A stretch of DNA of 14,656 nt, taken from NCBI GenBank assembly GCA_021778575.1, contig JAJYCH010000033.1, positions 1 through 14,656 on the forward strand, in the 5' to 3' direction. This document shows, one piece after another, positions 2,137 to 14,583 of this stretch (the stretch's first letter is position 1; every line of letters starts with the position of its first letter). A model generated the notes under the pieces. It saw only the letters and a program-made list of their open reading frames with translations. It was not told the DNA's origin and did no database searches. The translations under genes and the position numbers were made by a program. The DNA comes from Planctomycetota bacterium. Its GTDB lineage: Bacteria > Planctomycetota > Planctomycetia > Isosphaerales > Isosphaeraceae.

Positions 2137-3258
2137 TCACTTGATCTCCACAACCTGATCCATCTCGGTCGACAGCTTGACCGTCTGCTTGAGCTCACCT
2201 TCGGGCCGGACGACCAGGACCTCGTACGACAGATCGCCGGGCAATTCGAAGGTTGTGGCCTCGGCAATCTTATCTTGCGCCACCAGCTTTCCATTCAACC
2301 GAACGGTGATCTCTCCCGGCGAACCCGCGATCTTGAACGTGACCTTGCGGCGGAGCGTGTAGCGGCGGGTGATGTCCTCGGCGGGGACTTCTTTTGAGGC
2401 TCGCTTCCAGACCATCGGGAAGTAGGTTTCGTTCGCCTGGAACGAGGTGGCGTAGATCCGGTTATTGGGCTTGGTTTCGTCAGCCTTCGCGGCCTGGCCG
2501 ACGAACCACCCTTCGTTGAGCTTGCTGGGCTCGCAGGCCCCCACGAACGACCATTCATGATCCCAGATTTCGACCCACGTATGATTACCCGAGTTATCCG
2601 TCCAGCGCGGCGTTCCCACCATTCTCGCCGGGATTCCCACCGCCCGGCAGGCGTCGATCAGCAGGATCGACAGCCCGGTGCACGAGGCGAAACCAGCCTG
2701 GACCGACTCGTAAGGGCTCTGGTCGGGCTTGGGCCGCCTGGTCGCGTGGTAGGCGACGTTGAAGGTCTTGAAGACCTCGACGTTGAGCCGCTTGACGGCC
2801 TCGGTCGGTGACGGGCATTCCTTGGCGATCGGCAGGAATCGGTCGTAAAAATCCTTCCGCCAGTCGTCGCGACGCTCGTTGATGCTGGCATAGGGCAAGA
2901 CGTGGTCGAAGAACAGTTCCTTGGGGATCGACTTGCCCCAGGGGGTCGCTTCGCGGGCGAGATACGCATATTTGACGTTGGATAACAAATAGTCCTTGCC
3001 CAGAGTCTTGAGGTCGCTCTCGGGCATGTGGGCGATCAGAAAGCCGACGGCCTCGCGCTGGTCGGCGGGAGCCTCGGCGATCGCGTTGATCAGGGCCGTG
3101 CCGTTGTCGCCGGCCTTGGCCAGCTTGTCGGCAACGGGCGATCGAAGCTCGGTCGGCAAGAGTTCGAGAACCGGGTGATCCATCCCCGCCCGGGCCAACA
3201 ATGGGAACGCAACAAGCCCCAGGGCGAGGGTCGCGACGATTCGGCGAAAACGTATCAT
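2137..3258 (-). CDS. Secreted transglutaminase-like protein
   Basis: The product has 373 residues from the ATG at 3258-3256. That ATG has AAGGA seven bases upstream and opens directly into a signal peptide (MIRFRRIVATLALGLVAF, cleavage near ARA-G). An upstream in-frame TTG at 3288 is less likely. The papain-like transglutaminase core is visible: Cys193 in GFASCTGLS, a helix LLIDACRAVGIPARMVG (199-215), and His226 in NHTWVEIWD. The usual third residue, an Asp in a D-P-T-like position, aligns with Glu243 in CEPS, although Asp233 is also nearby. A C-terminal beta domain (about 300-373) looks Ig- or carboxypeptidase-regulatory-like. It probably acts on or binds peptides outside the cytoplasm as a protease or peptide-modifying enzyme. 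It is the first gene of the minus-strand cluster, and a MITE lies 37 bp upstream of its start. Confidence 0.85.
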   Translation of the reverse strand: MIRFRRIVATLALGLVAFPLLARAGMDHPVLELLPTELRSPVADKLAKAGDNGTALINAIAEAPADQREAVGFLIAHMPESDLKTLGKDYLLSNVKYAYLAREATPWGKSIPKELFFDHVLPYASINERRDDWRKDFYDRFLPIAKECPSPTEAVKRLNVEVFKTFNVAYHATRRPKPDQSPYESVQAGFASCTGLSILLIDACRAVGIPARMVGTPRWTDNSGNHTWVEIWDHEWSFVGACEPSKLNEGWFVGQAAKADETKPNNRIYATSFQANETYFPMVWKRASKEVPAEDITRRYTLRRKVTFKIAGSPGEITVRLNGKLVAQDKIAEATTFELPGDLSYEVLVVRPEGELKQTVKLSTEMDQVVEIK

Positions 3259-3287
3259 GCGTTCGTCCTTCAAGAAGCTCGACGGCA

Positions 3288-3295
3288 AAAAACGA
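3288..3295. repeat. Left target-site duplication of the MITE
   Basis: AAAAACGA directly abuts the outer end of the left terminal inverted repeat. The same eight bases recur in direct orientation directly outside the right end. Confidence 0.85.
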
Positions 3296-3607: not shown

Positions 3608-3716
3608 GTAGGGTCGGCTGTGCGGACCGTTAGTTTGGCCATCGAAAGACCAGAAGTCGCCGATCAATCCCACGGAATTTGGCGATCGAGCTCACGGTCC
3701 GCACAGCGGACCCTAC
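3608..3716. repeat. REPIN-like doublet of inverted GC-rich palindromes
   Basis: The 23-bp segment at 3608-3630 (starting GTAGGGTCGGCTGTGC) and the 23-bp segment at 3694-3716 are reverse complements with a single mismatch, 63 bp apart. Each arm is itself a hairpin. The right arm has a perfect GGTCCGC-ACA-GCGGACC (3696-3712); the left arm (3612-3628) has one mismatch in seven pairs. Two REP-like palindromes in opposite orientation make the architecture called a REPIN or BIME. The spacer holds a 12-bp direct repeat (TTTGGCCATCGA at 3634 and TTTGGCGATCGA at 3678). No target duplication is visible at its ends. Confidence 0.75.
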
Positions 3717-3849
3717 AGTTGTCCGAGTGTTTTGCGCTCCGCTCGTCGGCAAAGACCAGACCTCGACGAGGAACCCGCTTGATTTCGACTCCGAAATCCT
3801 TCACACTCGGCAGGAGTCGTTCCGGCAACCCGGTCATCGAGAATTCGAC

Positions 3850-4752
3850 ATGAACCGCGTGATCCTGCTCGTTCCGGTCTTCCTGGTTGTCGGCGTCGGG
3901 TCGCTTGCCTCGGGTCAGCAGGTGGCTGACACGAAATTTGATACGAAGGTCGCCAAGCCGGCTTATACGGCGACGCATCCCAAGGTTCTATTCGACGAGG
4001 CCCATGCCAACTTTCACACGACGACCGGCCGTTACAAGCCGTTTGCCGACCTGATCGCCAGCGACGGCCTGAAAGTTACGCCCAACCTCTCGGATTTCTC
4101 GAAGAAGACGCTCCAGGGGGCCGATGTCCTGGTCATCGCCAACGCCACGGCAGACCAGAAGAAGTCCGCGTTCACCGACGCCGAGGCTGACGCCGTCCGC
4201 GACTGGGTCCAGCAAGGGGGCTCGCTGCTCCTGATCACCGATCACGACCCGTTCGGCTCGGCCTCCGAGAGCCTGGCCCAGCGGTTCGGGGTCGAGATGA
4301 GCAAGGGGTACACGTCCGACCCCGCGCACTCGGAACCGAGGAGCCAGTCGTGCCTGAACTTCACCCGCGAGGAAAAATTGATCGGCGACCATCCGATCAC
4401 CCAGGGACGCAATGATTCCGAGCGGATCAACCGGGTCGTCACCTTCACCGGGCAGTCGCTCAAGGGGCCGAGCGGAAGCGTCGCCTTGCTCAAGCTGGCC
4501 GACACGGCGATCGACAGGGTTCCGCCCGACAACAAGCTGACCTCCGCCGCCGGCCGAGCCCAGGCGCTGGCGTTTCCGTTCGGCAAGGGGAAAGTGGTCG
4601 TGATGGGCGAGGCCGGCCTGCTCTCGGCGCAGGTGACCGGCCCCGATCGCCAGCCGATGGGCATGAATTACCCAGGGATCGACAACCGCCAGCTCGCCCT
4701 CAACATCATGCACTGGCTGGCAATGCCGAAGGCAAAGGACGAGGCGAGATAA
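3850..4752 (+). CDS. Secreted DUF4350 / GATase-like domain protein
   Basis: The product has 300 residues from the ATG at 3850, which opens into a signal peptide (MNRVILLVPVFLVVGVG, cleavage near ASG-Q). The longer frame back to 3679 would read through the palindrome doublet and bury the signal peptide. The mature part shows a Rossmann-like class I glutamine-amidotransferase-type fold: VLFDEAHANFHT (47-58), a helix with PFADLIASDG, ADVLVIANAT (91-100), a helix ending VRDWVQQGGSLLLITDHDP (116-134), and a late strand GKGKVVVMGEAGLLSA (245-260). This layout matches DUF4350-type domains that bind rather than cleave. No catalytic Cys occurs at a nucleophile elbow, so a binding or structural role is more likely than amidotransferase activity. 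A hairpin follows the stop within 12 bp. Partner and ligand are unknown. Confidence 0.8.
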   Translation: MNRVILLVPVFLVVGVGSLASGQQVADTKFDTKVAKPAYTATHPKVLFDEAHANFHTTTGRYKPFADLIASDGLKVTPNLSDFSKKTLQGADVLVIANATADQKKSAFTDAEADAVRDWVQQGGSLLLITDHDPFGSASESLAQRFGVEMSKGYTSDPAHSEPRSQSCLNFTREEKLIGDHPITQGRNDSERINRVVTFTGQSLKGPSGSVALLKLADTAIDRVPPDNKLTSAAGRAQALAFPFGKGKVVVMGEAGLLSAQVTGPDRQPMGMNYPGIDNRQLALNIMHWLAMPKAKDEAR

Positions 4753-6033: not shown

Positions 6034-6966
6034 ATGACCCAGCGCCAGGACCGGATCGCCGGAGGTTTGATCGGCTTGCTCGTGGGCGATGCCCTGGGGG
6101 TTCCTTATGAGTTCCATTCCGCCGAGGCGATCCCCGCCGAATCGCTGATCGAATACGAACCTCCCGCCGGGTTCATGCGGTCCCACACGGTGATGCCGGG
6201 AACTTATTCGGACGATGGGGCTCAGGCCCTTTGCTTGCTGGCCTCGCTCCTGGATCGGGGACGGCTCGATCCCGACGATTTCGCGAAGCGGCTGGTCGAT
6301 TGGTTAACGCGTGGATACTGCGCGGTCGACAACCGGGTTTTTGACGTCGGGATTCAGACGAGACGGGCGATCCGGGCTCTGCAAGCGGGAACGCCGCCGC
6401 TCGAGGCCGGCCCTTCGGAAGAACAGGCGAATGGCAACGGGTCGTTGATGCGTGTCCTTCCGCTGGCGCTCTGGCATCTCGGGACCGATTCCGAACTCGT
6501 TGAGGACGCATGCTTGCAGTCCCGGATTACTCATGGCCATGCGCGATCGGAGGCCTGTTGCGCCTTGTATTGTCTCTGGGCCAGGCGCATCCTTGAAGGC
6601 TCAGCCGATCCCTGGAGCAACGCCGTGACCACTTTCCGGAGCTTGATCGACGACGACTCTGCTCTCCGTCGCGAACTCGACGGCGCGATCCGTCCCGATG
6701 ATCCGCCGGCCGGCACCGGTAGCGGTTACGTCGTCGACTGTCTCCATTCGGCTCGCCTGGCGGTGCAGGCCGGTGACTTCGAACAGGTCGTCCGGTCGGC
6801 GATCCGGCTCGGCGACGATACCGACACCACGGCGGCCGTCGCCGGAGGAATCGTCGGGCTCCGCGATGGGCTAAAATCGATTCCCGACCGCTGGGTCCAG
6901 AAGCTCCGAGGCGGCGACTGGTACGAACCACTTCTCCAAGGTCTGCTCGCTCGATACCCTGCTTGA
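6034..6966 (+). CDS. ADP-ribosylglycohydrolase family protein (DraG/ARH-like)
   Basis: The 310-aa product shows the family motifs in order. GLIGLLVGDALGVPYEF lies at residues 11-27. YSDDGAQALCL at 58-68 carries the first metal-binding Asp pair, Asp60 and Asp61. NGNGSLMRVLPLAL is at 133-146, THGH at 166-169, and GDDTDTTAAVAGG at 260-272 carries the second metal-binding Asp cluster. Such enzymes use a binuclear Mg site to remove ADP-ribose from proteins (DraG from nitrogenase reductase, ARH1 from Arg, ARH3 from Ser) or hydrolyse related ADP-ribosyl compounds. The length is normal for the family and the protein is cytoplasmic. The ATG has GAGAGGG six bases upstream. No ADP-ribosyltransferase partner is seen in the window, so the substrate is unknown. 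Confidence 0.9.
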   Translation: MTQRQDRIAGGLIGLLVGDALGVPYEFHSAEAIPAESLIEYEPPAGFMRSHTVMPGTYSDDGAQALCLLASLLDRGRLDPDDFAKRLVDWLTRGYCAVDNRVFDVGIQTRRAIRALQAGTPPLEAGPSEEQANGNGSLMRVLPLALWHLGTDSELVEDACLQSRITHGHARSEACCALYCLWARRILEGSADPWSNAVTTFRSLIDDDSALRRELDGAIRPDDPPAGTGSGYVVDCLHSARLAVQAGDFEQVVRSAIRLGDDTDTTAAVAGGIVGLRDGLKSIPDRWVQKLRGGDWYEPLLQGLLARYPA

Positions 6967-7016: not shown

Positions 7017-8546
7017 TTGTGGAATCGCTTGCCACGCTGGCTTGATAATCCGATTCTGGTCAAGCATGCTCGGTCGAGACTCCGGCAGATCCATCTGCTG
7101 CCGTCGATCGGAATCATGGCGGTGATCTCGCTGGCGATCGTTGTGGGGGGCTACCAGTGGAACGGGCTCCAGGGAAGCGAGACGTTCGGCATGCTGATGA
7201 TCTTGCAGTCGGTCATGCTGGGCGTGATGGGGGCGTCGCAGGTTGCTGCTTCGGTGGGCAAGGCGCGGGAGTCGGGGATTCTTGACTTCCACCGGGTCAC
7301 GCCGATGTCGCCGTTCTCGCTGGCCCTGGGATTCTTCTTTGGAGCGCCGATCCGCGAGTACCTGATGTTCGCGGTAACGTTGCCGTTCTCGATGGTCTGC
7401 GTCTTCATGGGTCGGCCGAGCCCCCTGGGAGCCATTCAACTGCTCTTTCCGCTGATCCTGGGGGCGTGGGTGATGCACGCGATCGCGCTCTTGAATGCTC
7501 TGGCGGGCAAGAGCGGGAAGTCGAATTCGGGCTCGCGAGGTGTGATCGGGCTGGTGATGTTCCTGGTCTTCGGCGGAAGCTGGTTCGTTCCCAGCTTCTT
7601 CAGCGCGGCGACGGTGGTGGACGAGTTCCCGACGGGGACCGTCTACGGCATCAGAATTCCCTGGCTGATGATCTTGCCGCTCGACCTGCTACCGGTCATC
7701 GGCTTTTTTCTGGTCGGGGCGACCCGGAAGATTGCCTCGGAACGGGCCCATACCCTTTCGAAAGGGCAGGCGCTGGGTGCGTTGACGACCGCCGCCGTCC
7801 TGATCGTGGGCGGGCTCTGGGATATCGAGGTGCACTTCATCTGGACACTGGTCGTGCTCTACGGTCTGGTGGTCGGCTCGATCGTCCTGACGTCGGCGAT
7901 CACGCCGAATCTTGATGAGTTCGCCAAGGGGATTCGCAAGGCCGCGAAGGAGGGGCGAAAGTACCCCTCGGCCTGGTCTGATCGCGGGTTGAACCGGATC
8001 GACGTGTTCTGCTTCGGCGCGGTGGTCCTGATCGCGGCGACGGTCTGCTGGCGGATGATCGAGAAACCGGTTGCGTGGGTACCGGCCGGTTCGATTTCGT
8101 ACTCGCTACCGATCGCCATCGGGGTTCTGGTGGTGGCTTATAACGGGCTGGCGTTGCAGTATTTTCTGCTCCGGTTCGGCAAGCGCGGTCCGGTCGTGTA
8201 CGCGCTGTTCCTGTTTACCGTCTGGCTGCTGCCGCCGGTCTGCGGAGCGATTTCCGCCGCCGCTCGGGCCCAGACCCGGACGCCCGACACTCCGGCCGAC
8301 ATCTGGTCTCCGGCGCTGGCCAGCCTCAGCCCGGTCGCCGGGATCGTCATCTCCTCGGGAATCTTCAGCATCCCGGGAATCCGCGAGGCACAGGCCTGCG
8401 CACTGGTGCCCGCCTTGGTCCTGGCGCTGCTGTTCAATAACCTGGTGACCTCGATTCGCCGGGGGGTCGAGAAGAAAATTCACCCCGCCGACGAATCCAG
8501 AACCAGTCCCGACAAGCCGACAGAGCTGGTTCCGATCCTTGCTTAA
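7017..8546 (+). CDS. Polytopic membrane protein, ABC-2-type permease-like
   Basis: The 509-aa product starts at TTG 7017, nine bases after GGGAG. I count about 11-12 hydrophobic segments, for example near residues 32-52, 58-82, 103-132, 139-165, 174-198, 213-236, 253-300, 335-355, 368-392, 397-420 and 438-490. The cytoplasmic loop text ESGILDFHRVTPMSPFSLA (85-104) resembles the coupling region of ABC-2-type permeases, in which planctomycetes are rich. No ATPase gene is adjacent, so it would need a partner encoded elsewhere. The C-terminal tail (HPADESRTSPDKPTE) is polar and probably cytoplasmic. It lies 50 bp after the ADP-ribosylglycohydrolase gene on the same strand. The permease assignment is moderate; integral membrane location is clear. 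Confidence 0.8.
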   Translation: MWNRLPRWLDNPILVKHARSRLRQIHLLPSIGIMAVISLAIVVGGYQWNGLQGSETFGMLMILQSVMLGVMGASQVAASVGKARESGILDFHRVTPMSPFSLALGFFFGAPIREYLMFAVTLPFSMVCVFMGRPSPLGAIQLLFPLILGAWVMHAIALLNALAGKSGKSNSGSRGVIGLVMFLVFGGSWFVPSFFSAATVVDEFPTGTVYGIRIPWLMILPLDLLPVIGFFLVGATRKIASERAHTLSKGQALGALTTAAVLIVGGLWDIEVHFIWTLVVLYGLVVGSIVLTSAITPNLDEFAKGIRKAAKEGRKYPSAWSDRGLNRIDVFCFGAVVLIAATVCWRMIEKPVAWVPAGSISYSLPIAIGVLVVAYNGLALQYFLLRFGKRGPVVYALFLFTVWLLPPVCGAISAAARAQTRTPDTPADIWSPALASLSPVAGIVISSGIFSIPGIREAQACALVPALVLALLFNNLVTSIRRGVEKKIHPADESRTSPDKPTELVPILA

Positions 8547-9226: not shown

Positions 9227-12200
9227 ATGGATGATTCCGCGAAACAGCCTCGGACCGCTTTTCGCGTTCTGACGCTCCTGGCGCTGGTCGCGCTGGCGCT
9301 TCTGGTCCGGATCGGCGCGGCGTTCGTGGTCACTCGCTATGTCGAGGGGCAGGGGAAGCTCTGTGTCTTCGCCGACACGAATATTTACTGGGAACTGGCC
9401 CGAACCATCGTCGACGGTCAGCCTTACGTCGTCGACCAGTTCGGCAGCCCGCACTATGCGCTCCGGACTCCGGGTTACCCGCTGTTTCTGGCGGCGTGTC
9501 GAGCCGTCTTCGGGGCGAATCTGCTCGATGTCCGGCTAGTTCAGGCGGTTCTGGGGGCCTTGAGCGTCGGGCTGGTGGCGAAGCTGGCACGAAGGGTCTT
9601 GGACAGTAGCCAACCCGCTGGTGATGCCACCAACCCCCCACCCCAACCAACAGGGGAGGCGGTCAGCGGAGACCAGCGAGATTCCATCCCTCTGATGGCG
9701 GCGGCTCTTGCGGCGGTTCATCCTTACCTGGCGGCACTTTCGGCCCTGGTTCTTTCCGAGGCGATCTTTCTACCGTTGATGATGCTGGGTCTCTGGGGGC
9801 TGGCGAGTCTCTGGAGTCGGCCCGGTCCGAAACGGCCGGTCCTGGTGGCGATCGGCACTGGCCTGGCCCTGGGAATGGGGATTCTGGCCCGGCCGTCGTG
9901 GGCCTTGTTCGTTCCGGTGGTTCTGGGAAGCTGGGTGATCGGGTCAGGGCAGGGGGCTCGATTCGCGGCGTTCCGACGGTCGATCCTGGTCGCTCTGGCG
10001 ACGTTGGCGGTTCTGGCTCCGTGGTGGATCAGGAACGAGCGGGTGATCGGCAAGTTTGTGCCCACGGCGTTGTGGGTGGGGGCGAGCCTGTACGACGGGA
10101 TCAGCCCGCGGGCCGATGGTTCGAGTGCGATGGAGTTCGTCGAGGCTCCCGACGTCCGGTCGCTGGGTGAGATCGACCAGGACGCTCTGTTTCGTCAGCG
10201 GTCGGTCGACTTTGCTCGCGAGCACCCGGGCCGGGTCCTGGAACTGGCGGCGATCAAGCTCGGGCGGTTCTGGAGCCCCTGGCCGAACGCCGACACGCTC
10301 CGATCGCGCTGGGTTTCGGTGGGCTCGGCGGTGGTGACTCTGCCGATCTTCGCCCTGATCGCGCTCGGGGCTTTCGACCGCCGGCGCGACTTCCGGGCTC
10401 TGGTCTTGCTGGGCGGCCCGCTGATCTATTTTTGCCTGCTTCACATGGTCTTCGTCAGTTCGATCCGGTACCGGATTCCCGGCGAGCTTCCCGCGCTGGG
10501 GCTGGCGGGCCTGGGTCTGGTCCGAATCCTGAAGGGGCTTCGACCGATGAGCATTCGTCGACGGATTCGCCAGTGGCTGGGCTGGGCGCTGGTCCTGGTC
10601 GTCTCGGTCGCGCTCGGCGGGGCGATCGCGGCCTATTTTTATGTGACCGATAGCAACACGCTGGCGGATCTGATCCGCCGCGAGTCGCCGAAGTATCTCC
10701 CTCGGAGCCGGGTCGAGGTCAACCGGGTCCGGGTCGGCTGGTTCAAAGGGGAAGTGACGATCAACGAGCTCGAGATCCGCGAGCATCGCGACGGCACGAC
10801 CGGTCCGATGATCGGGCGATCGAAGTGGATTCAGGTCAGATTCGACCCGTGGGCGATGATGAAAGGGCGATTCGAGGCTCGCGACGTGACCGTCGCCAAG
10901 CCGACGATCCGCCTGGCCCGGAAGCCCGACGGGACCTGGAACGTCCAGGGACTTCTGGCCGATCCGTTTCCGACCACGTCCACCGGAGCCACGCCGCCGA
11001 TCACGATCCAGGAAGGGACGATCGAGCTGGTCGAGGATGGATCGACGGCTCCGCTGACGCTCCTCCGCGAGGTCTCGATCAAGATCCCGGCCAGCTCCAG
11101 CGCGACTGCGCCGGTCAACTTCGAGCTGACCGCCAAGGGGGACGCCGGTCTGTTCGACCGCGTTCACGTCGAAGGGACCATCGACCCCACCACTGGCCAG
11201 GTCAAGCTCCGCGCCGGCGAACTGGTTCGCCTGACCCTCTCCAGAGGATTGCGCGATAAGCTGCCTGCCGCGATCGCCCGGGGTCTCGGTCAGGCCGGTC
11301 TGGAAGGGGGGGAGATCGACGCCGATCTGCCGAGCCTGACCTTCGACCCCAGGGCCACGCCTCGGTTCCACTATCAGGCCACCGCCAATCTCAGACGTGG
11401 TCTCTGGAAGTGCCCGAAGCTGCCGTTCCCGCTCAGCGACATCTCGGTCAACGCCGCGCTCAAGGATGGCGAGCTGACCATCCTTCAAGGTTCGGGCAGC
11501 GACGGATCAACCAGCCTGAGCCTCACCGGCAAGTCGACGCTCAACCTCGACGAGCCAGCGAAATCGGTCTTCGAGATCCACGCCGTGGCCACCAACCTCG
11601 AACTCGACGAGCGGATTCGGCGCTGGATTCCCGACGAGACGAAGGAACTCTGGGACGCCTACTTCCCCCAGGTCAACGCCACGCCCTCGACCAGCGCCGG
11701 GCGGGTCAACGTCGACGTGGTCGCCGGGCGGTCCGAACCATCGGCGAAGATCGATTATGCCGTGGATGTTATGTGTGCCGATGTCTCGATGAAATACAAG
11801 CATTTTGCCTATCCGGTCGACCATGTTCAGGGAAATCTGCACTTCACGCCGGGCAAGATGACTTTGAATGTGCGAACATTGATTGGTAATCAGCCGCTGG
11901 TGGTCACCGGCGACATCAACGATCCAGGCCCCAATGCCGAAGCCCGGTTGACATTCAAAGTTGCCTCGTTACCGATCGACGACGTCCTTCGGAAAGCCTT
12001 GCCGCGCGAGGTCAGGACGAAGGTCGATCAGTTCCAGCCGGCCGGTAGCGTTCGAGGAACCGCCAAGCTGCACCGGCGTCCCCCGTTGAACAAGGGCGAC
12101 GATCCGCGAGGCCGGGTCGACTTCGATGCCTGGATCGAACTCAACAAGGGCTGTTCGATCATCTGGGAGGGGCTGAAGTATCCGGTCCTGAATCTCGAAG

Positions 12201-13867
12201 GGGAGTTCGAGATCCATCCCGACCACTGGATCTTCCGGAAGATGCACGGCAACGGTGGTCAGGCCCAGATCCGGGCCGAAGGGGACGTGAAGCAGATCGC
12301 TCGCGATCGATTCAAGGTCGACGTCAACATCCAGGCCGATAACTTGCCGTTTGACGACCAGCTCAAGAACGCCTTGCCCACCCCCTGGCGGGTGACCTGG
12401 ACGACGCTCAACCCGACCGGGGCGAGCGATATCGTCGCCGATATCCACGTCGAGCCCGGCAAGCCCGATCACAGCCGGGTTGTGATCGTCCCTCGATCGG
12501 GGACCGGCGTGAAGCTCCGGTTCAACCCCTTGAGCGTCGTCGAAGGGGGGACGGCCAACCCCATCGAACTTCGAATGGACGAAGTCTCGGGCGAGTTTGT
12601 CTACGATACTTCATTCGTGCCGCATACGTCGATGAAAGGTGTCAAGTTCGCGTTCCAGGGTGCTGAAGTCAAGTTCGCCGAAGGGGCCGTCGACGTCAAG
12701 GACAACGGCCAGTTCGACCTTGGAGTCAACGGCCTGGAGGTGAAGGACCTCCGGCTCGACGACGGGCTGATTCGCTACATGCCGCCGGTCATGGCCGCCA
12801 ACGCCCGGCGTCTGAAGGACGACATAATCCCGTTCATCAAGGCCGATCTCCGGCTCGGCTGGTCGGGTAAGCCCGGCGAACCCGCCTATTGCCAGTGGGA
12901 CAAGGCGATGGTGGTCCTGACCAACAACAAGATCTCGGCCGGCAATGACCTGAGCCTCGAACATATCGAGGGGCAGCTTGATAACGTCCGCGGGTCATTC
13001 AACGGCCGAGCCCTTGATGTTCACGGTAAGCTCCGGATCGATAGCGTCAACATCCTCAACCAGCACGTCGACGGGCTGACGGCTAACCTCGATGTCGAGA
13101 ACGGCGCGGCGCGGCTCACCGAGATCAAGGCGAAGGTTCTCGATGGGACGCTCAACGGCCGGATCTTCGCGACGCTCGACGCCACGCCGCGCTATTCGCT
13201 CCATTTCGAGCTTCAGAAGGCCAACCTCACCGCCTACGCGCTGGAACAGCCGGGTCACCAGGGGTTCAAGGGGCTGGTGACCGCGCAGATCGACCTCAGC
13301 GGGTTGGGGTACGATCCCCGGACCATCACCGGCGACGGGATGGCCCGGATCGTCCAGGGAGACCTCGGGACTCTCCCCGTCGCTCTCCGGTTCGCCAACT
13401 TCCTGAAACTCGGCAAGGACTCGAAAAAGGACACGAAAACCGCCTTCGACTTCGCCGAGCTATTCTTCACCGTGAAGGACGGCGACACCACGCTGAACCC
13501 GGTCCACCTGGTCGGCAACGCCTTCAGCCTGGAAGGGCACGGCAAGGTCGACGTCCGGGGCGATATCGACCTGAAGCTCAAGATTTTGCCGGGGCGTGAT
13601 GGCCTGAATATCCCCTTCCTCAGCGTGTCAATCCGCGAGCTGGGCGGTCAGATCGTGGTCGTCCGGGTCCACGGACCGGTCGCGACCCCAGCATTCAACC
13701 TCGAACCGATCCCCGCTACCGGCGAATTCGGCAAGGCGATAAAGCAGAACATCCAGACCAGGAAAACCGGTCTCGTCGGCCCGATGCGCGAGCGGTTCGA
13801 CTTTCGACCCAGGAACGGCCTGACCGGCCGCTGGTTCGGGCCGAATCCGGGTGAGAAGGTCGACTGA
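9227..13867 (+). CDS. Fusion of a GT-C glycosyltransferase (PMT_2/GT39-like) with an AsmA-like protein
   Basis: A single 1546-residue frame. Residues 1-440 are a polytopic GT-C enzyme. After the first helix (12-36) comes a periplasmic loop with FADTNIYWELARTI (Asp50) and LRTPGYPLFLAACRAVFG (79-96), then LSEAIF (176-181) and about ten hydrophobic segments, as in PMT_2 enzymes that move sugars from polyprenyl phosphate onto lipid or protein. A Pro-rich loop lies at 128-150. A basic stretch (LRPMSIRRRIRQW) precedes a helix at 451-473. Residues 475-1546 are AsmA-like: beta-rich text, at least five repeats of about 125 residues, and an AsmA_2-type C-terminal region (1255-1495). AsmA-family proteins such as TamB and YhdP span the periplasm and carry phospholipid. 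By the positive-inside rule the junction is cytoplasmic and both active parts are periplasmic. Coupling of glycolipid synthesis to lipid transfer is inferred. Confidence 0.85.
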   Translation: MDDSAKQPRTAFRVLTLLALVALALLVRIGAAFVVTRYVEGQGKLCVFADTNIYWELARTIVDGQPYVVDQFGSPHYALRTPGYPLFLAACRAVFGANLLDVRLVQAVLGALSVGLVAKLARRVLDSSQPAGDATNPPPQPTGEAVSGDQRDSIPLMAAALAAVHPYLAALSALVLSEAIFLPLMMLGLWGLASLWSRPGPKRPVLVAIGTGLALGMGILARPSWALFVPVVLGSWVIGSGQGARFAAFRRSILVALATLAVLAPWWIRNERVIGKFVPTALWVGASLYDGISPRADGSSAMEFVEAPDVRSLGEIDQDALFRQRSVDFAREHPGRVLELAAIKLGRFWSPWPNADTLRSRWVSVGSAVVTLPIFALIALGAFDRRRDFRALVLLGGPLIYFCLLHMVFVSSIRYRIPGELPALGLAGLGLVRILKGLRPMSIRRRIRQWLGWALVLVVSVALGGAIAAYFYVTDSNTLADLIRRESPKYLPRSRVEVNRVRVGWFKGEVTINELEIREHRDGTTGPMIGRSKWIQVRFDPWAMMKGRFEARDVTVAKPTIRLARKPDGTWNVQGLLADPFPTTSTGATPPITIQEGTIELVEDGSTAPLTLLREVSIKIPASSSATAPVNFELTAKGDAGLFDRVHVEGTIDPTTGQVKLRAGELVRLTLSRGLRDKLPAAIARGLGQAGLEGGEIDADLPSLTFDPRATPRFHYQATANLRRGLWKCPKLPFPLSDISVNAALKDGELTILQGSGSDGSTSLSLTGKSTLNLDEPAKSVFEIHAVATNLELDERIRRWIPDETKELWDAYFPQVNATPSTSAGRVNVDVVAGRSEPSAKIDYAVDVMCADVSMKYKHFAYPVDHVQGNLHFTPGKMTLNVRTLIGNQPLVVTGDINDPGPNAEARLTFKVASLPIDDVLRKALPREVRTKVDQFQPAGSVRGTAKLHRRPPLNKGDDPRGRVDFDAWIELNKGCSIIWEGLKYPVLNLEGEFEIHPDHWIFRKMHGNGGQAQIRAEGDVKQIARDRFKVDVNIQADNLPFDDQLKNALPTPWRVTWTTLNPTGASDIVADIHVEPGKPDHSRVVIVPRSGTGVKLRFNPLSVVEGGTANPIELRMDEVSGEFVYDTSFVPHTSMKGVKFAFQGAEVKFAEGAVDVKDNGQFDLGVNGLEVKDLRLDDGLIRYMPPVMAANARRLKDDIIPFIKADLRLGWSGKPGEPAYCQWDKAMVVLTNNKISAGNDLSLEHIEGQLDNVRGSFNGRALDVHGKLRIDSVNILNQHVDGLTANLDVENGAARLTEIKAKVLDGTLNGRIFATLDATPRYSLHFELQKANLTAYALEQPGHQGFKGLVTAQIDLSGLGYDPRTITGDGMARIVQGDLGTLPVALRFANFLKLGKDSKKDTKTAFDFAELFFTVKDGDTTLNPVHLVGNAFSLEGHGKVDVRGDIDLKLKILPGRDGLNIPFLSVSIRELGGQIVVVRVHGPVATPAFNLEPIPATGEFGKAIKQNIQTRKTGLVGPMRERFDFRPRNGLTGRWFGPNPGEKVD
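10532..10549 (+). promoter_or_regulatory. Internal ribosome-binding site and ATG at the fusion joint
   Basis: AAGGGG at 10532-10537 stands nine bases before an in-frame ATG at 10547-10549 (Met441). That ATG begins exactly the short basic tail plus membrane anchor expected at the start of a free-standing AsmA protein. Internal initiation could give a separate 1106-residue AsmA-like product besides the fusion. It may also be a relic of two once separate genes. Confidence 0.45.
11231..12784 (+). other. Protein-level repeats in the AsmA-like part (five signature sites)
   Basis: A signature of the form L-x-[LIF]-[DS]-x-x-[LI]-x-x-x-[LIM]-P recurs at residues 669 (LTLSRGLRDKLP), 791 (LELDERIRRWIP), 915 (LPIDDVLRKALP), 1040 (LPFDDQLKNALP) and 1175 (LRLDDGLIRYMP). 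The spacings are 122, 124, 125 and 135 residues. A second periodic motif precedes several sites: FPLSDISVNA (734), YPVDHVQGNL (862) and YPVLNLEGEF (985). A looser sixth site may be LTAYALEQPG (1334). The interval given runs from the first to the last signature. Confidence 0.75.
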
Positions 13868-13977: not shown

Positions 13978-14583
13978 ATGCGCTATGGTCCCGAACACAA
14001 GGCCAGGACCCGAGGCAAGATTCTCGAAGCGGCGGCTCGGCTGTTCCGTCGTGATGGTTATCAGGCTTCGGGCGTCGACAAGGTCATGGCCGAGGCTGGG
14101 CTGACTCCCGGCGGGTTCTACGCTCATTTCGGCTCGAAGCAGGCCCTCCTGGCCGAGAGCTTGACGCAGGCGGGAGCCGAGATGGGAGCCCGGCGAGTGG
14201 CTCTCGTCGATGGGTTGGCGGGTCGTCAGTGGATCGAGGCATTCATTGACGATTATTTGAGTGACCAGCACCGCGACCATCTCGAACAAAGCTGTCCGCT
14301 GGCCGCGTTGATCTCCGAGGTCGCGCGAGCCGACCGGCCCGTCAAGGAGACGTTCGAGGGGATGGTCCAGGAAGTTGTCCGGGCATTCGAGGTCCATGCG
14401 ACCGACGACGGCGCTGGCACCTCCGAGGAGCGAGCCCTGGCGGCGGTTGCGCTCTGCGTCGGTGGATTGGGTCTCTCGCGGTCGGTGCAAGACCCGGCTC
14501 TGTCATCGAGGATTCTGGATGCGTGTCGCAACCAGGCGAGGATAATTCTCTCGCCCGGGCGTCGCAGGCGAAAACAGTCCTGA
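13978..14583 (+). CDS. TetR/AcrR-family transcriptional regulator
   Basis: The 201-aa product has the N-terminal TetR DNA-binding domain: helix TRGKILEAAARLFRRDGY (11-28), then the helix-turn-helix SGVDKVMAEAGLTPGGFYAH (31-50) and the trailing FGSKQALLAESL. The remaining 135 residues are a helical ligand and dimer domain with text like SCPLAALISEVARADRP, typical of the LmrA/YxaF-like subgroup. It would repress until a small ligand binds. GAGGA lies four bases before the ATG at 13978. A sigma70-type promoter carrying a dyad lies just upstream. The gene ends 15 bp before a FabF-type start, so the pair is probably one operon, with fatty-acid or polyketide chain building as the regulated process (inference). 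The highly basic C-terminus (SPGRRRRKQS) is noticeable. Confidence 0.9.
   Translation: MRYGPEHKARTRGKILEAAARLFRRDGYQASGVDKVMAEAGLTPGGFYAHFGSKQALLAESLTQAGAEMGARRVALVDGLAGRQWIEAFIDDYLSDQHRDHLEQSCPLAALISEVARADRPVKETFEGMVQEVVRAFEVHATDDGAGTSEERALAAVALCVGGLGLSRSVQDPALSSRILDACRNQARIILSPGRRRRKQS

Follow-up and report, generated by a model that had tools for sequence, protein, structure and literature searches.

A GT-C glycosyltransferase fused to an AsmA-like protein in Isosphaeraceae, a local variant of a conserved gene pair of Planctomycetia

The window analysed here is a complete contig of 14,656 bp (C764; GenBank JAJYCH010000033.1) from a planctomycete metagenome-assembled genome (MAG; 5.35 Mb, 883 contigs, 75% complete). 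We identified a single frame of 1546 residues at 9227–13867 on the forward strand, in which a GT-C glycosyltransferase is fused to an AsmA-like protein; all features of this protein given below lie on the same strand. The fused form is a local version of a gene pair that is otherwise conserved in tandem. It is also recurrent, as judged from trees of related sequences, in at least two lineages of the Isosphaeraceae. A preliminary description of the window recognized both halves and the single frame, but missed that the fusion is a variant of a conserved pair.

The fused frame is confirmed as a real feature of the window. It starts with ATG and comprises 1546 codons with no internal stop in the list of open reading frames, and the pattern of guanine and cytosine content by codon position is unchanged on either side of the junction, which bears out the earlier claim of one uninterrupted frame. 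The start at 9227 is backed by alignment, given that the homologue P0002 has an identical start position and P0003 starts one residue earlier, and homologues of equal length were found.

Related sequences were sought in 99 genomes (the window's own included), and matches were identified in 96. Stretches were taken from genomes with clear matches, and 81 loci from 80 genomes were classed. Of these, 63 encode the GT-C enzyme and the AsmA-like protein in tandem (same strand, within 400 bp), four are fused and 14 fall in other classes; a profile search placed L105 among the tandem loci as well, bringing these to 64. Counting the window as well, both genes are seen in 71 genomes (64 in tandem, five fused and two apart). 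Thus, the two genes remain coupled with or without fusion. Tandem pairs are present in five families (f1, f2, f4, f5 and f7). Here we treat the family code f1 as Isosphaeraceae and the class as Planctomycetia, because NCBI places Tautonia in that family and class; the codes and NCBI ranks may differ for some members. Many split pairs are less than 50 bp apart or overlap by four bases, and the four-base overlaps in several pairs suggest coupled translation. At L042, L054 and L066 no more than 0.8 kb separates the enzyme gene from the end of the contig or the edge of the stretch. The pair is adjacent in G032 and G038, which share a genus code with G006 and G023 (discussed below).

The AsmA-like protein is the more widespread member of the pair. 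Among 23 chosen members of the class (all those of f3, f6 and f8–f11 in the set, and one of f5), all 23 have an AsmA match, two of them weak (G088, E-value 8.8e-5; G049, E-value 7.7e-21), and a strong enzyme match (E-value <1e-40) was identified in two (G049 and G059). Six loci of f8, f9 and f10 carry the AsmA gene but lack the enzyme. Elsewhere in the phylum, 127 of 132 genomes of other classes gave an AsmA match, and none of 20 stretches from these, picked for strong matches and upstream room, held an enzyme match at an E-value up to 1e-3. We therefore regard the AsmA-like protein as the wider part, and the enzyme as added in, or kept by, some families.

A whole-sequence search returned 39 proteins, of which 12 are fused (including that of the window), 26 are AsmA-only (1067–1115 residues) and one is distant. 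Besides P0002, ten further database proteins are fused, at 41–65% identity. Fused genes are present in G008, G025 (with the same AsmA sequence as P0034 of Tautonia marina), G034 (Tautonia sociabilis) and G039 (on an 8.67-Mb contig). Relatives are a mix of fused and split forms, rather than all split, the outcome that the preliminary description held would make the fusion an artefact. An unrooted tree of 50 AsmA rows was restricted to loci and proteins seen with both halves, leaving out all AsmA-only database proteins, two f1 loci (L044 and L059) and, except for three, the loci of other families. In it the state changes between fused and split at least twice, and two clades are fused throughout: P0001–P0009, the clade of the window (9 of 9 rows, support 91), and Tautonia with P0024 and P0025 (6 of 6 rows, support 88). 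A wider tree of 114 AsmA rows (15 fused) was made with FastTree, a faster method, and takes in AsmA-only proteins whose upstream genes were unseen. It needs a minimum of eight changes, seven of them forced by well-supported branches, and its nearest rows to the window and to P0002 are the AsmA-only P0010 and P0011. We do not claim eight independent fusions, as this count leans on those AsmA-only proteins. Two changes is a low count, because P0014 and P0017 (on 4.4- and 7.8-Mb contigs) look truly split near the fused P0004. The AsmA-only P0012, P0013 and P0020, whose given start falls within the anchor helix, could be fused genes with a frameshift or a misplaced start. On these unrooted trees gain and loss of the fusion look alike; fusion as the ancestral state is unsupported, since f2, f4, f5, f7 and the greater part of f1 usually have split pairs.

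The glycosyltransferase (GT) part comprises residues 1–438 (9227–10540). The Pfam model PMT_2 matches the N-terminal third of the whole protein at 35 bits (cut-off 26.1); it does not reach this cut-off in three fused relatives (P0004, P0024 and P0034). Hydropathy indicates nine hydrophobic segments, plus one more at residues 455–473. We read the helices of an AlphaFold2 (AF2) model as the conserved seven-helix module of GT-C enzymes and three later helices, followed by a basic stretch and an anchor helix; the window protein is thus predicted to have the GT-C transmembrane fold. The acidic residue conserved in the first periplasmic loop of such enzymes is present as Asp50 (9374–9376), just after the first helix, and is aspartate in 82 of 82 aligned GT sequences. 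It sits where the catalytic residue of GT-C enzymes is expected, and would be catalytic as in the family. Residues 406–416 (10442–10474) include H406, S412 and R414-Y415-R416, likewise invariant in all 82. Together the PMT_2 score, the predicted fold and Asp50 uphold the preliminary call of a PMT_2-type GT-C enzyme. Assignment as an ArnT equivalog was rejected (11.7 bits for the NCBIfam ArnT model against a cut-off of 567).

The remainder of the protein resembles AsmA. Matches to DUF748 (residues 444–686; 42.7 bits, cut-off 50) and to AsmA (residues 1257–1425; 27.5 bits, cut-off 29.8) fall just below their Pfam cut-offs, and the AsmA model scores above its cut-off in four of the five other proteins scanned (P0003, P0004, P0034 and P0014) and just below it in P0024. 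We label the window protein AsmA-like on both grounds. Of the domains named in the preliminary description, PMT_2 and AsmA were matched, but AsmA_2 and DUF3971 are absent from the Pfam matches at E-values up to 1. The AF2 model and its structural matches show an N-terminal anchor helix followed by a chorein-N-like domain, as in AsmA-like proteins. This domain (residues 479–686; 10661–11284) would form the mouth of a groove. The long beta-rich part, expected to be periplasmic (residues 494–1494; 10706–13708), is modelled as approximately six beta modules marked by short helices spaced 122–155 residues apart. There are 51 strands in the AsmA model, and their alternation exceeds that of shuffled sequences; a long groove with a hydrophobic lining is putative. 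A C-terminal tail (residues 1515–1546; 13769–13864) is modelled at low confidence (predicted local distance difference test, pLDDT, <50 at model residues 1074–1105). The earlier claim of a long AsmA-like C-terminal part thus agrees with the predicted fold, the chorein-N-like start and the near-cut-off matches. A sequence profile of the AsmA-like part found no relative among solved structures (PDB) at an E-value up to 1. Assignment as TamB was rejected, since PF04357 matched 6 of 14 control genomes but neither the window's own genome nor any of 12 chosen relatives, as was assignment as YhdP, the Pfam model for which is under its cut-off in six of six scanned proteins.

Between the two parts lies a short basic linker, expected to be cytoplasmic (residues 436–450; 10532–10576); the 19-residue loop ahead of the hydropathy peak holds six K/R residues and lacks D/E. 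The linker leads into the helix that anchors the AsmA-like part in the inner membrane (residues 443–474; 10553–10648), which appears as helix 2–33 of the AsmA model, as helix 443–474 of the GT model and as the hydropathy peak at 455–473. A basic cytoplasmic linker and a membrane anchor after the enzyme had both been described before and agree with these predictions. Structural alignments of the GT model to oligosaccharyltransferases (OST) and ArnT reach model residues 470–478 and so enter the anchor helix. The helix may therefore serve as an extra GT-C helix, a suggestion tempered by the low pLDDT there and by the 12 alignment rows from fused proteins. The preliminary division into two halves stands, but the internal methionine at which a former AsmA gene would begin is corrected to residue 441. 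Its ATG (10547–10549) lies within an ATGA, where split relatives begin the AsmA gene, and a separate AsmA start may still be used in the window. A methionine near the junction is absent from 6 of the 12 fused proteins (P0003, P0006, P0007, P0009, P0024 and P0025); in these the AsmA half lacks an ATG of its own, and GTG or TTG starts are possible.

The enzyme and the AsmA-like bridge probably work in a shared pathway. More fully, and with some reservation, we propose a two-module inner-membrane protein in which enzyme and bridge form one unit, usually encoded by two close or overlapping genes in five families of Planctomycetia and as one chain in at least two lineages of Isosphaeraceae. At the periplasmic leaflet, the GT-C module would transfer a sugar from a polyprenyl-phosphate carrier to a lipid or lipid-linked acceptor. 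With the basic stretch at 436–450 in the cytoplasm and the anchor helix leading back out, the chorein-N-like mouth should open on the leaflet of the active site, and the groove would extend toward the outer membrane, carrying lipid between the membranes. The product, or a lipid awaiting modification, would be loaded into the groove where it is synthesised. Hand-over of a sugar-modified lipid is a reasonable inference, and the predicted anatomy, with the enzyme placed where a chorein-N-like groove meets the membrane, is consistent with it. In its strictest form, a glycolipid made at the periplasmic leaflet would pass straight into the attached bridge, so that substrate channelling supplies a dedicated outer-membrane glycolipid; we consider this possible, and hold it more loosely. 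In Planctopirus limnophila nearly all lipid A genes are reported to be essential (PMC10632474), and LptD and BamA are reported in every planctomycete genome searched (PMC3422733). These reports suggest that an outer membrane is there to receive the cargo.

Several observations weigh against this proposal. The two genes are approximately 12–20 kb apart on one contig at L044 (G006) and L059/L060 (G023), and at L081 (G049) the enzyme has no AsmA match within 8 kb. A strong enzyme match is missing from 13 of 14 f3 genomes, from one f5 genome and from f8, f9, f10 and f11, although the AsmA-like protein is present in them; this protein must therefore have a task that does not require the enzyme. The AsmA model has a predicted template modelling score (pTM) of 0.58, and outer-membrane barrels equal Vps13 in score in its list of structural matches. 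The anchor helix has a pLDDT of approximately 57–67 in the GT model, so that any packing on the enzyme is putative. One observation speaks against the fusion itself: G001, of the same genus as the window (a MAG contig with coverage of 1.24), has two genes with an ATGA overlap.

Enzyme and bridge might share a pathway and still handle separate cargo: the enzyme could decorate lipid A or another envelope component, much as ArnT does, and the bridge could move ordinary phospholipids, the two being paired because envelope growth calls for both at one time and site. We consider this unlikely, though it deserves to be kept in mind. Co-regulation alone fails to predict either a one-chain fusion in at least two lineages or pairing with no other gene across five families, and the low score of the ArnT model argues against an ArnT-like role. 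It is distinctly improbable that the AsmA-like part is an acceptor-holding periplasmic domain of the enzyme rather than a transport bridge. Holding the acceptor is a role attributed to C-terminal domains in other GT-C enzymes, and the reach of the OST and ArnT alignments into the anchor helix fits it. However, the part comprises 1100 residues in about six repeated modules, exists without the enzyme in many genomes, and has an N-terminus resembling lipid-transfer scoops.

Returning to the fusion itself, we consider it very unlikely that two overlapping genes were joined by a mistake in sequencing or assembly. The +1 frame of the window ends in DR-stop at the ATGA as does the split gene of G001, so that fused and split forms differ by a net one base; the MAG is fragmented, and the nearest AsmA rows to the window and P0002 are AsmA-only. 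Against this, P0002 (73% identical) has identical residues at the junction (ILKGLRPMSIRRR) and reads them in the same frame, half of the fused proteins lack the junction methionine, and T. sociabilis, T. marina and G039 carry fused genes. The protein is also present on three contigs, perhaps not independent. An artefact of a single assembly was therefore rejected as the main explanation. Equally doubtful is a chance loss of a stop between co-transcribed genes, with no functional meaning: the close spacing of so many split pairs makes fusion mutationally easy, and the wider tree needs at least eight changes, but among rows seen whole, with AsmA-only rows excluded, the fused state fills two clades, and the pair persists across five families while the surrounding genes differ.

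No third operon member conserved across the five families was identified in the flanking genes. A TilS-like gene (named by eye), the largest cluster among the flanking genes, lies upstream in 13 f1 loci from 10 genera (L039, L040, L042, L045, L051, L057, L063, L065, L070, L072, L073, L075 and L116), and near a lone AsmA gene at one locus each of f9 (L102) and f10 (L110), a hint that the locus had a shared ancestral position; the gene was not found in the window flanks as scanned. Other flanking genes, also named by eye and each seen in some genera, are NAD kinase-like, dxs-like, dapF-like and transporter-like. We read all of these as shared surroundings and not as parts of the system. In the window, the fused gene is preceded on its strand by a gene for a 509-residue protein with many hydrophobic stretches by eye (7017–8546, +; no Pfam match) and followed directly by one for a TetR-family regulator (13978–14583, +). 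Also identified were an ADP-ribosylglycohydrolase family protein (6034–6966, +; PF03747, 241 bits), a transglutaminase-like protein (2137–3288, −; PF01841) and a protein with weak DUF4350/GIFT-type matches under the cut-offs (3679–4752, +).

Other bridges may be present in these genomes. The Pfam AsmA model has a single match in the window's genome (75% complete) and our AsmA profile A3 has four, and weaker AsmA-like frames may exist there. Each of the 12 chosen relatives (93–100% complete) has one strong A3 match (>1100 bits), the next best being 78 bits, and weaker matches are present in 11 of the 12. Thus, each relative has one main close homologue, not proven to be its only bridge.

Each half of the protein is of a known kind, and neither the pairing nor the single-chain form was found described. 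Our literature search, which covered titles and abstract openings of best matches, mostly open-access papers with few preprints or subscription papers, found none describing fusion or pairing of an AsmA-like protein with a GT-C enzyme, in line with the preliminary statement that no such architecture was known. Database names of the fused proteins, where given, cover the enzyme end or the AsmA end only, so that the link is easily missed. Planctomycete outer membranes are little studied. A bridge encoded beside, and sometimes fused to, one enzyme names a candidate maker of its cargo, so that a single-residue change could probe which lipids AsmA-like bridges carry and how these are chosen and loaded. 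The conserved pair suggests that sugar attachment and lipid delivery belong to one process. For GlcN-PG, another glycosylated phospholipid, onward carriage by AsmA-like proteins is called unknown (PMC12713373).

Among known systems, ArnT (the lipid A 4-amino-4-deoxy-L-arabinose transferase) shares the PMT_2/GT-C fold at 14% identity to the window enzyme, and to our knowledge has no AsmA-like part. The oligosaccharyltransferases AglB, PglB and STT3 and the protein O-mannosyltransferases are 10–15% identical in their structural alignment rows; by our reading of the AF2 model, the window enzyme differs in having only three long helices from the large loop to the anchor helix. With AsmA, YhdP, TamB, YdbH and DUF748 proteins the window protein has in common the anchor helix, the chorein-N-like start and the long alternating beta strands, and it is matched by the AsmA and DUF748 models, though just below their curated cut-offs. 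Unlike AsmA, YhdP, TamB and YdbH, it is joined to a glycosyltransferase, and its relatives are paired with one. We know of no GT-C or AsmA-like part in MprF. That protein and similar ones are a precedent for coupling lipid modification to translocation; MprF, however, modifies its lipid at the cytoplasmic face and translocates the product across a single membrane (PMC12713373).
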